Part shown: one piece after another, positions 18,662-21,676 of the stretch
Numbering within the stretch: the stretch's first letter is position 1
How the letters are laid out: every line of letters begins with the position of its first letter
IMG/VR virus record: IMGVR_UViG_3300033182_001315
Location: 1-21,676 of that record
Reading direction: 5' to 3' (one strand)
DNA from: a virus
DNA length: 21,676 bases
Translations under genes and position numbers: made by a program
Notes under the pieces: generated by a model
Databases searched by the model: none
What the model was told of the DNA's origin: nothing
The model's input: the letters and a program-made list of their open reading frames with translations, nothing else

Positions 18662-18681
18662 ACGAATTCTGACGAGATGTT

Positions 18682-18771
18682 AGGTTCTGCGGCAACAGAA
18701 CTTTTGTGCTTTGACCAATGGCAATTATGCTGTCTAGTACAAGGGACATCAAGCCAACTTTGCCGAGTTGG
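18682..18771 (+). ncRNA. Structured leader RNA with complementary hexaloops
   Basis: The gap 18662-18812 has no convincing gene but is clearly richer in GC than its surroundings. Hairpin 1 pairs 18682-18689 with 18696-18703 (one G-T pair), loop CGGCAA. Hairpin 2 pairs CCAACT 18754-18759 with AGTTGG 18766-18771, loop TTGCCG. The two loops are exact reverse complements and could form a six-pair kissing interaction. A second CAGAAC at 18791-18796, just before the AAAGGA of the next gene, could pair alternatively with GTTCTG of hairpin 1. The element looks like a leader or cis-regulatory RNA for the late transcript; its class is unknown. Confidence 0.55.
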
Positions 18772-18812
18772 GAGTTCACTATGTAGCTTTCAGAACACAA
18801 TAAAGGAAATAA

Positions 18813-19604
18813 ATGATAGCATTCAAAGATTTTTTGCTAGAAGGTAGTGCTGAGGTTAACCTTTCAAAAAAATTGCTCAAAAATCTGAGTGATATTGCGC
18901 GATATTCTATTACAAATTGGGAATGGGCAAATTGGGATAAAGGTGATCTAAGTAAAGCGTACCGTGAAAAAAATGATATTTATGACGAAATAGAAGCACA
19001 AGCAAAAATTCTTAGAGATGCTATTCGTAAACGAGAAGGTAAAAGCATCACCTTGTATCGTGGAATAGTGAACAAAGATATTGATTCACAGAAATTTAGA
19101 GGCAGAATTCTCACGAGTTGGACAAGCAGAGCAAAAGTTGCTGCTTTGTTTGCTGGAATTACTATGGGTATGACTGGAAATAAAATTGTAATGAAAGGCG
19201 AAAACTCCTTCACTAAATTAGAGGGATTGACTAAATCTCAAGCACAAAAAATTCAAGATACAGTAAAACGCGATGGATACGCTAAAATTGGAAATTTTCT
19301 TTTCAAGCGTAAAACGGATAATCCAGAGTGGACAGTAATATTCATAAAAAGTAAATATGGAAATCGTAGATTACCTGATGATGATGCTGTTGAAACAGAT
19401 GACATTGCTCGATGGTTACTCGATAGAATTGAAGATGCTTTGAAATTAAATAGACCTTATGAAGATGAAGGATTTGTTATAAAGAAAGAAATATCAGTTG
19501 ATGATATTGTTTGGGTATTGAATGCTGGTGGGACTATGGAATATATAGTCAAAAATCATAGCAGCATTGACGGAATAAAAATTGGAATAGAAGAATTTTC
19601 TTGA
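18813..19604 (+). CDS. Putative ADP-ribosyltransferase, probably packaged in the capsid
   Basis: A 263-residue protein with AAAGGA before its ATG. The core resembles R-S-E ADP-ribosyltransferases: SITLYRGI (R83), then ILTSWTSRAKVAALFAG (101-115), the STS-type NAD-binding strand, and a C-terminal acidic YEDEGFVI/KKEI segment in which E217/E219 or E226 could be the catalytic Glu. The S-T-S and E-x-E motifs are not canonical, so the family call is moderate. The N-terminus MIAFKDFLLEG resembles the capsid-targeting peptides of T4 internal proteins (MKTYQEFIAEA), which direct proteins into the head for injection. A late promoter upstream fits such a virion effector, comparable to T4 Alt. Confidence 0.6.
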   Translation: MIAFKDFLLEGSAEVNLSKKLLKNLSDIARYSITNWEWANWDKGDLSKAYREKNDIYDEIEAQAKILRDAIRKREGKSITLYRGIVNKDIDSQKFRGRILTSWTSRAKVAALFAGITMGMTGNKIVMKGENSFTKLEGLTKSQAQKIQDTVKRDGYAKIGNFLFKRKTDNPEWTVIFIKSKYGNRRLPDDDAVETDDIARWLLDRIEDALKLNRPYEDEGFVIKKEISVDDIVWVLNAGGTMEYIVKNHSSIDGIKIGIEEFS

Positions 19605-19610
19605 TGACGC

Positions 19611-19841
19611 AGGAAAGTAATTGCTTGGACCTGGGGGCAGAACCCAGCATCTCCACCAAGGTTTCAGACGGGGATGATATAGAATTCGACAGGTTATGAG
19701 GATACTGAAGAGAGAAAATAGGGTTGCGACCAACGCTAAAATTATAATCGCAAATGACGTTGATTATACACCTGTTAGAGTAGCACTTGCTGTCTAATTA
19801 GGTCGGGGTTCGGGGACACCTTGTTATCAAAGTTCCCCTTT
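19611..19841 (+). ncRNA. ssrA: Circularly permuted two-piece tmRNA
   Basis: The acceptor piece comes first: T-arm CTGGG (19631-19635)/CCCAG (19643-19647), acceptor strand CATCTCC (19648-19654), discriminator A and CCA (19656-19658). After an 11-base spacer the coding piece starts with GGGGATG (19670-19676), which pairs with CATCTCC. The conserved AGAATTCGACAGG follows. GAGGATACT (19698-19706) can pair imperfectly with 19616-19626 as helix P2. The resume codon GCA is at 19750, after ATAATC. The tag is ANDVDYTPVRVALAV and the stop TAA is 19795-19797. CCT/TTAGA (19771-19779) pair with TCTAA/AGG (19793-19802) around the tag end. The T-loop GGCAGAA departs from TTCRANN. End positions are approximate. 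Confidence 0.9.
19812..19841 (+). terminator. Terminator-like hairpin ending the tmRNA
   Basis: GGGGA (19812-19816) pairs with TCCCC (19834-19838), with an inner CTTG/CAAAG stem around the loop TTAT, followed by TTT. It lies just after the tmRNA tag and its reverse face also covers the stop codon of the opposite-strand endonuclease, so it may end transcription from both sides. Its layout parallels the terminator at 20579-20609. Confidence 0.6.
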
Positions 19842-20444
19842 GCAATATTTTGGATGAAGACTTTTCATATATCCTGGATTATAATAATTGCCACATAATT
19901 CACATTTTTGTTTAATGATTTGTTTTGGCTTTCGTAATGCTTTTTTATGTTCTTCGGAAAGAGGTCTTCCTTTTTTTCTTGTTGGTTTATCATATGTGAT
20001 ACCTTTATTCCAAGGTGTTTGACCAATATGAGATTTACTCATTTTTTCACGAGATTCTTTAGAAAATTTGTAACCAACTTTGGAGTCAATTATTTTTTGA
20101 ATACTTTCTGGAGAATGTTTGAAATTTTTGGGTTGAATAAAACTTTTATTGTCAGTTTTGTTCAACCACTTATCATCCTTGACAACTTTTAATCGTTGAA
20201 GTACATTTTCTTCCCATTTGCGGGCAGCATCAGCGGTCTCAAAGGTTTTTCTGATTTCATAATCAAAAGCATCTTTACCGTGTTCTTCAATCAAAGATTT
20301 GACGACTTTACTGCTGGTAAAATAGGTTTCCCATAGGTCATCTGGTGAGCAACCTTTAGCAAAACGGACACCATAATAAACTTGACCTGTTGGTTTGAAT
20401 TTGATAAGATATGTATATGGGGTATGATATATAGATTTAGACAT
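19827..20444 (-). CDS. GIY-YIG homing endonuclease with NUMOD3 repeats (SEG-like)
   Basis: The only opposite-strand gene. The 205-residue protein has a variant GIY-YIG module: PYTYLI (9-14), VYYGVRF (22-28, catalytic R27), YFTSS, and E78/E79 in KWEENVLQRL. NUMOD3 DNA-binding motifs follow: HSPESIQKIIDSKVG with FSKESREKMSKSH (110-139), and GRPLSEEHKKALRKP (159-173). A C-terminal Cys cluster is present (C181, C184, H197, C201). GGGAG is 7 bases before its ATG. This is the architecture of the T4 seg endonucleases. Such genes spread by cutting related phage genomes lacking them and being copied in by repair. Its stop codon lies in the tmRNA terminator and a second tmRNA tag end lies beyond its start. 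Confidence 0.92.
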   Translation of the reverse strand: MSKSIYHTPYTYLIKFKPTGQVYYGVRFAKGCSPDDLWETYFTSSKVVKSLIEEHGKDAFDYEIRKTFETADAARKWEENVLQRLKVVKDDKWLNKTDNKSFIQPKNFKHSPESIQKIIDSKVGYKFSKESREKMSKSHIGQTPWNKGITYDKPTRKKGRPLSEEHKKALRKPKQIIKQKCELCGNYYNPGYMKSLHPKYCKGEL

Positions 20445-20476
20445 GACAGTCTCCCTGAAAGATTGTTGTGTTTAGA

Positions 20477-20507
20477 GTAGCAGAGAAACTGCGAATTTCT
20501 CTGCTAC
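20477..20507 (-). promoter_or_regulatory. Perfect 12-bp hairpin in the endonuclease leader
   Basis: GTAGCAGAGAAA (20477-20488) pairs perfectly with TTTCTCTGCTAC (20496-20507), loop CTGCGAA, extended by one A-T pair. It lies 33 bases before the endonuclease start on the minus strand. On that strand CATAAATA (20518 down to 20511), one base from the late element TATAAATA, lies just upstream. T4 homing endonuclease genes are often held back by leader hairpins and expressed late, so a similar control is possible. No T-run follows it on either strand, so it is not a typical terminator. Confidence 0.5.
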
Positions 20508-20524
20508 TTGTATTTATGTATTTT

Positions 20525-20609
20525 AGAATTTATACTCCAGCACGAATGGCAATTGCTGCCTAACTGCTGATGGGCTTGGGAAGTGCCTGGAAACAGAAAC
20601 TTCCTTTTT
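20525..20609 (+). pseudogene. Displaced second tmRNA tag end and terminator
   Basis: Reading from 20528, the codons give IYTPARMAIAA and a TAA stop at 20561-20563. This matches the intact tag's DYTPVRVALAV. Tyr, Thr, Pro, Arg and two Ala are identical, and ACA/ACT, CCT/CCA and AGA/CGA are synonymous swaps. The stretch after the stop ends in a hairpin laid out like the one that ends the tmRNA gene. No resume codon, pseudoknot or 5' piece is present, so this is a 3' fragment separated from its gene by the endonuclease. It retains the canonical ending Ala-Ala. Confidence 0.75.
20579..20609 (+). terminator. Rho-independent terminator
   Basis: GGAAGT (20579-20584) pairs with ACTTCC (20599-20604), with an inner CTG/CAG stem capped by the stable tetraloop GAAA (20590-20593), followed by TTTTT at 20605-20609. 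It would end plus-strand transcripts arriving through the tmRNA remnant and insulate the late promoter 8 bases downstream. Confidence 0.85.
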
Positions 20610-20616
20610 GTCTTGT

Positions 20617-20624
20617 TATAAATA
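20617..20624 (+). promoter_or_regulatory. T4-type late promoter TATAAATA
   Basis: An exact late element directly after the terminator and 31 bases before the holin-like gene. Transcription would start near 20630 and give a short leader with GCGGAAAT before ATG 20656. It marks the membrane and cytochrome-like genes as late genes. Confidence 0.75.
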
Positions 20625-20655
20625 TAATATAGACATTAAATTGGGCGGAAATTAA

Positions 20656-21015
20656 ATGAACGATTTATTTACATCATCGGATATCATTTTGGCAGCGATG
20701 GTGTGCTTTTCCTCGATTTTCGTTTTTCTCTTCAATTTCAGACATGATAGTTTGGCGATTGGAGACATTCATGATGAAAACGGAAATTATAGGTGGGGCA
20801 TGATTGCATTGGATGTAGTCATCAACCTTGGAATGGCATTCACAGGATATTTCTTTATTGTAGTTGTTTTTGGATCTATTCCTCAACTACAAGCACAGCA
20901 AGGGTTTAAATACCCAGTGGCATATCTGTTTGCACTCACTTCAAACGTAAGTATACCAATCGTATTGAAGTGGTTTCAGGCAGAGTTACAGAAACGAATC
21001 AAGAAGATCAAGTGA
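20656..21015 (+). CDS. Three-helix membrane protein, holin candidate
   Basis: A 119-residue protein with three hydrophobic segments: about residues 10-28 (IILAAMVCFSSIFVFLFNF), 48-72 (WGMIALDVVINLGMAFTGYF) and 85-104 (YPVAYLFALTSNVSIPIVLK). It ends in a basic tail (KRIKKIK). This size and topology fit a class I holin, which forms lesions in the inner membrane at the end of infection, and the late promoter upstream agrees. However, no endolysin is in view and the next gene looks like a cytochrome, so a role in an electron-transfer or other membrane complex remains open. It is 8 bases from its neighbour. Confidence 0.75.
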   Translation: MNDLFTSSDIILAAMVCFSSIFVFLFNFRHDSLAIGDIHDENGNYRWGMIALDVVINLGMAFTGYFFIVVVFGSIPQLQAQQGFKYPVAYLFALTSNVSIPIVLKWFQAELQKRIKKIK

Positions 21016-21023
21016 GATAGATT

Positions 21024-21455
21024 ATGGCACAGCAACCAAAACGTGAAATCACAACAGATGGAGATGTAGAAGTAGTCAAGCATGTCGAACAAGAAACACT
21101 GACTACTTCAAAATCAATAAAGACATTTATTTTCATTGTTCTTGGTATTCTGGCATACCTTACTTTTTTCATTATACCCGAAATCAATACCAGAACAGTC
21201 AGAATACAAAAAGACCTTACTTCAATTTTATTACAGAGTCAAAGATACGAGCGATCTGCCAGAGTTTTTTCTAATGATCATGTATGTGCAAGGTGTCATC
21301 TCAACCCCGATTATTTGCTTCACGGTCTTATGTCAAAGTTTAGGAATTTGAACGAGATGAAGGAATATCTCGCAAACGAACACCAAAATTTTTACACAAT
21401 GACTCAGCCCATGGAGGATGAGGAATTGATGGAGATTTTTCGCGGACTTAGATGA
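21024..21455 (+). CDS. Membrane-anchored protein with c-type haem motif
   Basis: The 143-residue protein has a charged N-terminus, one hydrophobic helix (about 32-52) that would anchor it in the inner membrane, and a periplasmic domain. That domain carries VCARCHLNP (C88-A-R-C91-H92), the CxxCH haem c attachment motif, with candidate Met axial ligands at 126 and 130 (YTMTQPM). A C-terminal helix (EDEELMEIFRGLR) resembles that of small class I cytochromes c. Haem would be attached by the host maturation system. A spanin-like function with a chance CxxCH cannot be excluded, since it lies in a late operon after a holin-like gene. Confidence 0.75.
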   Translation: MAQQPKREITTDGDVEVVKHVEQETLTTSKSIKTFIFIVLGILAYLTFFIIPEINTRTVRIQKDLTSILLQSQRYERSARVFSNDHVCARCHLNPDYLLHGLMSKFRNLNEMKEYLANEHQNFYTMTQPMEDEELMEIFRGLR

Positions 21456-21676
21456 AAACAGCAGTACTCATACTGTTCGTAATGATGTGCATGATACCTC
21501 TGATGACAATTGCTCATAAAGGAGTAGAACCCCACTGTAATGTAAATGATTATCAGTTACCTTGTTATGAAGATAAAACTGGTCAGATTCTTTACAAACA
21601 AGAGCCTGAAACAGTTATAGAGTTAGAAGAAGTAACTGAAAAAGTAGAAACAAAAAATAGAATAATTGGCAAAAAA
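21452..21676 (+). CDS. Secreted or periplasmic protein, 3' end beyond the window
   Basis: The ATG overlaps the preceding stop, and 75 codons are visible without a stop. The start MKTAVLILFVMMCMIPLMTI then AHKG is a good signal peptide with probable cleavage near Ala 21. No clear lipobox is present. The exported part has a Cys pair (C29 and C38 in PHCNVNDYQLPCYED) that could form a disulfide, then an acidic, Glu/Val-rich helix. Following a membrane-anchored haem protein, it could be a partner in the periplasm. An outer spanin is an alternative. No family is recognised. Confidence 0.7.
   Translation, partial: MKTAVLILFVMMCMIPLMTIAHKGVEPHCNVNDYQLPCYEDKTGQILYKQEPETVIELEEVTEKVETKNRIIGKK

Follow-up and report, generated by a model that had tools for sequence, protein, structure and literature searches.

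A homing endonuclease lodged between two tmRNA 3' ends in an uncultured phage: probable replacement of the end of an RNA gene

How does a homing endonuclease come to lie between two 3' ends of the same tmRNA gene? tmRNA is the ribosome-rescue RNA, and in the window (the whole stretch of DNA analysed, a 21.7-kb contig from an uncultured phage, the arrangement as a whole being a single instance known from assembly alone) a permuted, two-piece tmRNA gene at 19596-19841 is directly followed by an antisense endonuclease gene, beyond which a second tmRNA end is found. The reading we favor, with a probability of roughly 0.78, is that the resident ssrA was cut within its tag by a homing endonuclease, whose gene was copied in with the 3' end of a donor ssrA; the resident gene became a hybrid, and its native end was left stranded. 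The observations are the two ends (copy 1, attached, and copy 2, displaced; Table 1), the endonuclease, relatives in which the site is empty and a mosaic of sequence divergence.

Table 1. Features of the tmRNA locus, in window coordinates
Feature	Position	Strand	Evidence
Native part of permuted ssrA	19596..19764	+	RF04321, 89.1 bits; 62% (81% ungapped) identity to L001, 5' half
Copy 1, putative foreign ssrA 3' end, now attached	19765..19841	+	72/74 alignment columns identical to the intact ssrA end of L001
GIY-YIG/NUMOD3 homing endonuclease, 205 aa	19827..20444	-	PF07460, SegE-type GIY-YIG, phrog_314, I-TevI fold
Strong hairpin, endonuclease leader	20476..20508	-	99-nt leader MFE -25.5 kcal/mol, z = -5.7
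CATAAATA, similar to a late promoter of T4 type, ahead of the leader hairpin	20511..20518	-	Sequence match only
Copy 2, putative displaced native ssrA 3' end	20531..20604	+	nhmmer 34.8 bits, E = 1.5e-10; alpha_tmRNA best family; both pseudoknot helices pair
Gene flanking the displaced end	20656..21015	+	First 270 nt 75% identical to L001, identity then rises

The tmRNA gene is matched by the Rfam family tmRNA_permuted over 19596-19797 (E = 2.9e-16, its bit score lying above the gathering score of 47) and also by alpha_tmRNA, which extends through 19841, and was missed by ARAGORN run on the window. Its native part comprises the tRNA-like acceptor piece (CCA end at ~19660), the 5' end of the mRNA-like piece and the first five tag codons (AND V D), and the left junction with copy 1 may fall anywhere in 19750-19764. 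Copy 1 contributes the remainder of the tag (...YTPVRVALAV-stop) and a pseudoknot, so that the attached reading frame gives the tag ANDVDYTPVRVALAV-stop. This tag terminates at 19792-19794 in Ala-Val, not Ala-Ala; all 115 other phage tmRNA tags extracted, with a filter accepting AA or AV endings and no others, end in AA, and AV is unique to the window among the tags extracted. The sequence-only reading had the gene end at a terminator overlapping the endonuclease stop. The overlap holds, but the presumed terminator is the tmRNA 3' pseudoknot, which is common to ~110 other phage permuted tmRNAs and in copy 1 is of a minority type (CCTTGTTATCAAA). Copy 1 departs from the corresponding end of L001, a related phage, in two respects, an Ala-to-Val change of the last tag residue and one extra T in a pseudoknot arm. 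The hybrid of resident 5' part and copy 1 can be read as a tmRNA, and because of its AV ending and the one-base insertion in its pseudoknot its presumed function is uncertain.

Beyond the endonuclease, copy 2 encodes YTPARMAIAA followed by a stop, and has a pseudoknot whose loop is CCTGGAAACAGAA. A pattern for the T-arm of permuted tmRNAs yielded at least 100 phage tmRNAs, nearly all of which, among the matches listed, finish in the same kind of pseudoknot, and a profile of tmRNA ends built from 46 other phages, with the window and L001 excluded, finds copy 2 at 20547-20605 with the score given in Table 1; on the same profile copy 1 scores lower (10.9 bits, E = 0.004). The best Rfam family for 20445-20655 is likewise alpha_tmRNA (E = 5.8e-4), and both helices of the copy 2 pseudoknot pair. 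The second tag end previously reported past the endonuclease (IYTPARMAIAA-stop) is thus real, whereas the terminator said to follow it with the same layout is again a tmRNA pseudoknot. The two tags were also described as matching with synonymous codon swaps; they are indeed similar, six of 11 residues being the same (DYTPVRVALAV versus IYTPARMAIAA), and the differences are accordingly not all synonymous. A profile search of 111 other tmRNA-bearing loci gave no credible second tmRNA end, an apparent one in L096 being a chance match within a gene. No IMG/VR contig carries the exact YTPARMAIAA coding sequence, and a search of 50,697 phage records with the locus, the tmRNA and copy 2 gave no nucleotide match.

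The endonuclease between the two ends matches NUMOD3 in Pfam (4.5e-11), the Pfam SegE GIY-YIG family at E = 5.6e-5 (23.8 bits, just under the 25-bit cut-off) and the homing endonuclease family phrog_314 in PHROG (4.3e-20), and the best match of its predicted fold is the catalytic domain of I-TevI (probability 1.00, E = 0.009). In an alignment of 12-13 homologs Y12, Y24, G25, E78 and N95 are invariant and R27 is nearly so, and by these residues the GIY-YIG core appears intact. The stop codon (TGA, minus strand, 19827-19829) falls inside the copy 1 pseudoknot, past a conserved C-terminal Cys motif, and this merging of the endonuclease stop into copy 1 suggests that endonuclease and copy 1 move as a single unit. 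Reading the sequence without the extra T of the pseudoknot arm, the endonuclease frame would continue through the pseudoknot, so this base may mark the fitting of the endonuclease to its new end. The leader, in which the late-promoter-like CATAAATA is followed by a very stable hairpin, is reminiscent of the regulated leaders of T4 homing endonucleases.

Homology between copy 1 and copy 2 starts at a TATAC.CC repeat, at 19765 and 20531, respectively, and the DNA between the two repeats (19765-20530) constitutes an insert of 766 bp, a correction to the ~750 bases by which the original end had been proposed to be pushed downstream, the displacement itself being well supported. Removing the insert and joining 19764 to 20531 restores a clean 15-residue tag, ANDVDYTPARMAIAA, with the length and register of the tags of two phages with uninterrupted genes, L001 (ANDVDYTPVRVALAA) and L229 (ANNADYTPARMALAA). 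Integrative islands in tRNA and tmRNA genes also supply a 3' end that restores the gene and displaces the original end, using an integrase and att sites. Examined as such an island, the locus has no integrase gene and no att repeats, only TATAC.CC being noted across the insert ends, and unlike the islands the 766-bp insert holds the endonuclease alone. The analogy to such islands that the sequence-only reading had drawn, while pointing to the missing integrase, is looser than that to the mobile ORFs of fungal mitochondria discussed below.

L001, the sole close relative found, has one uninterrupted tmRNA and no endonuclease. Its tmRNA 3' end is 97% identical to copy 1, while identity to the window is 62% over the tmRNA 5' half, 70% over the RNR genes and 75% over the initial 270 nt of the gene that follows copy 2. 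Counted as substitutions relative to L001, copy 1 shows 1/73 (ungapped), the left flank in the tmRNA 5' part 27/139 and the right flank after copy 2 67/270; copy 1 differs from both flanks (Fisher p = 7e-5 and 6e-7, respectively), with no difference between the two flanks themselves (p = 0.26). In a set of 1559 phage tmRNA pairs whose 5' parts are 65-70% identical, the 3' ends are on average 62% and never >90% identical, whereas by the same pairwise measure the window and L001 share 68% of the 5' part and 92% of the 3' end. Since copy 1 is nearly identical to L001 and the tmRNA 5' half and the gene following copy 2 have diverged, copy 1 would be the foreign piece, an L001-type island, and copy 2 the resident end with its native flank. 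The opposite assignment, with copy 1 resident and a cassette of the endonuclease and a foreign ssrA remnant, copy 2, inserted behind it, would accommodate the facts that copy 1 is the attached end and that copy 1 is also the end in L001, with which the downstream genes are shared. We consider it unlikely, as the sequence following copy 2 has diverged from L001 to the same extent as the tmRNA 5' half, with copy 1 alone standing out; a resident of L001 type would moreover predict L001-like sequence immediately after the insert, where near identity is reached only from ~20930, and the similarity of copy 2 to gene ends starts exactly at the point where the tag is rejoined.

The copy-1 end was found elsewhere only on the contig of L001, and the proteins of the right flank are absent from GTDB genomes and from phage records. 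L229, also free of the endonuclease, has an uninterrupted tmRNA whose pseudoknot loop is of the common type and whose 66% identity in the end does not make it a nucleotide-level orthologue; by its tag and loop, L229 shows that the copy-2 type exists as a normal tmRNA end. The gene is thus uninterrupted in both empty relatives, neither of which represents the exact native allele. The earlier prediction of an uninterrupted ssrA ending in the sequence at 20528-20609 was not borne out: no uninterrupted ssrA with the exact copy-2 end was found in IMG/VR, and the close empty relative, L001, has the copy-1 end, which points to a putative donor lineage. This result and the failure to find an L001-like donor carrying the endonuclease both count against the favored reading. 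Insertion of the endonuclease together with a foreign ssrA 3' end, as first proposed, is well supported by the mosaic divergence, the clean rebuilt tag and the copy-2-like tag of L229.

Further downstream, L001 and the window are 91% identical over 20668-21676, rising to exactly 141 identical bases at 21536-21676, where both contigs stop at the same base; more than one exchange between the two has therefore happened, and the history is partly resolved. The shared contig end resembles a junction within a single assembly graph (expected at k = 141), which makes co-occurrence of the two phages probable. Ordinary mosaicism, in which the 3' end was exchanged by homologous recombination within the conserved resume region and the endonuclease was a passenger or arrived separately, would be in keeping with free recombination among phages, with this second near-identical tract (20930-21676) and with the combination of diverged 5' and similar 3' parts in some other tmRNA pairs. 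A simple exchange, however, replaces an end and would not retain both ends flanking an endonuclease, nor does it fit an endonuclease stop merged into copy 1, and we regard this explanation as improbable. That the assembler joined two co-occurring phages into a chimera is less credible still, even though the common contig terminus makes it probable that the genomes were mixed in one assembly: neither junction shows a long shared exact word, copy 1 and L001 differ at two positions, and the endonuclease frame ends naturally within copy 1, after the conserved Cys motif.

Under the favored reading, the element would be intronless, consisting of the GIY-YIG endonuclease gene and the 3' end of the ssrA of a donor phage. 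During mixed infection the endonuclease would cleave a resident ssrA of the copy-2 type within the tag, and an L001-like donor, with the endonuclease gene placed behind its ssrA, would serve as template for repair of the break. On the left, repair would rely on tmRNA homology in the conserved resume region GCAAAYGACGTTGAY, and on the right a short stretch of similarity within the tag, TATAC.CC, would be the joining point. The outcome would be a hybrid ssrA with the resident tRNA-like and 5' parts and a foreign tag end and pseudoknot, presumably expressed and perhaps functional, the native end being left stranded 766 bp downstream and the endonuclease and replacement end being inherited together. 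With a replacement end of its own, the element would need no intron and could insert into a useful RNA gene while leaving that gene intact.

Precedents for endonuclease ORFs that bring along a substitute 3' end for their host gene come from the mitochondria of the fungi Allomyces macrogynus (atp6) and Glomus (atp6, atp9, cox2 and nad3), where native ends are stranded downstream and, in Glomus, hybrid transcripts have been demonstrated (PMC3630166). The atp9 element of Glomus is itself of the GIY-YIG type (PMC3630166), contrary to the earlier statement that no GIY-YIG element so arranged had been described. As in these mobile ORFs (mORFs), the window has an apparently foreign gene end attached and the putative native end displaced past the endonuclease, and a hybrid gene and empty relatives complete the likeness (PMC3630166). 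The mORFs differ in residing in mitochondrial protein genes and in their demonstrated hybrid transcription (PMC3630166), the window presenting an antisense endonuclease at a non-coding, two-piece tmRNA of a phage, with a hybrid known from sequence. Among phages, the free-standing GIY-YIG endonucleases segA-segG of T4 type adjoin their target genes, SegB lying at tRNA genes, and are likewise intronless neighbors of RNA genes, inherited by double-strand break repair and co-conversion; unlike the window element, they are not described, in the accessible portions of these accounts, with a replacement gene end or a displaced native end (PMC2988022, PMC13096335). The methylophage Melnitz also has a permuted ssrA of the alphaproteobacterial type in an aquatic phage, for which the available part of the report describes neither an endonuclease nor a second 3' end (PMC9004378).

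In the literature on homing endonucleases and tmRNA or ssrA, with most subscription journals outside the scope of the search, no phage or RNA-gene example of an end-replacing endonuclease was found among the titles listed, and this seems to be the first report of mORF-like end replacement in a phage and in an RNA gene. A mobility strategy known from protein genes of fungal mitochondria would thereby extend to phages and to the gene of a non-coding RNA. Supply of the missing end also suggests how such elements can inhabit a gene without an intron. If so, a spare 3' end solves the problem of host damage with neither intron nor intein, and phages exchange their tmRNA tag, and with it the proteolysis tag in infected cells, here by swapping of tag ends between phages that probably co-occur. 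It is likely that phage homing endonucleases can act in this manner as end-replacing elements that settle in useful RNA genes by means of a spare 3' end and exchange the tmRNA tag between phages. The rebuilt tag ANDVDYTPARMAIAA offers a concrete candidate homing site.

Several further elements were noted around the tmRNA. A conserved structured element of ~110 nt lies upstream of it in both phages (window 18662-18780, L001 4540-4660), and a comparison of only these two sequences shows compensatory changes in five of 30 predicted pairs; the element has no match in Rfam and is a candidate non-coding RNA. Between this element and the tmRNA, a 263-aa ORF (18813-19604) that is absent in L001 has its stop overlapping the tmRNA leader, and appears ADP-ribosyltransferase-like by eye, with no match in Pfam or PHROG. 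A perfect T4-type late promoter motif, TATAAATA, occupies 20617-20624 in the spacer that separates the displaced end from the next gene; the shorter spacer of L001 lacks it.

Other members of the endonuclease family had no tmRNA end next to them in the homologs fetched and their flanks, and a search for duplicated gene ends around these homologs, by a method blind to the case of the window itself, gave weak or short repeats only. Families of 82 ORFs lying behind other phage tmRNAs included no endonuclease among the best 25 of 30. A terminase match in PX29/AsFcp_2 proved to be an annotated split intein with an endonuclease, a different arrangement. Contigs bearing members of the family do carry freshwater-2 RNA (L020 5705-5779, L021 5714-5788, and also L012, L017 and L018), in two cases within ~130 bases behind the endonuclease match, and in L202, L203 and L219 homologs of the endonuclease are located inside phage tRNA arrays.
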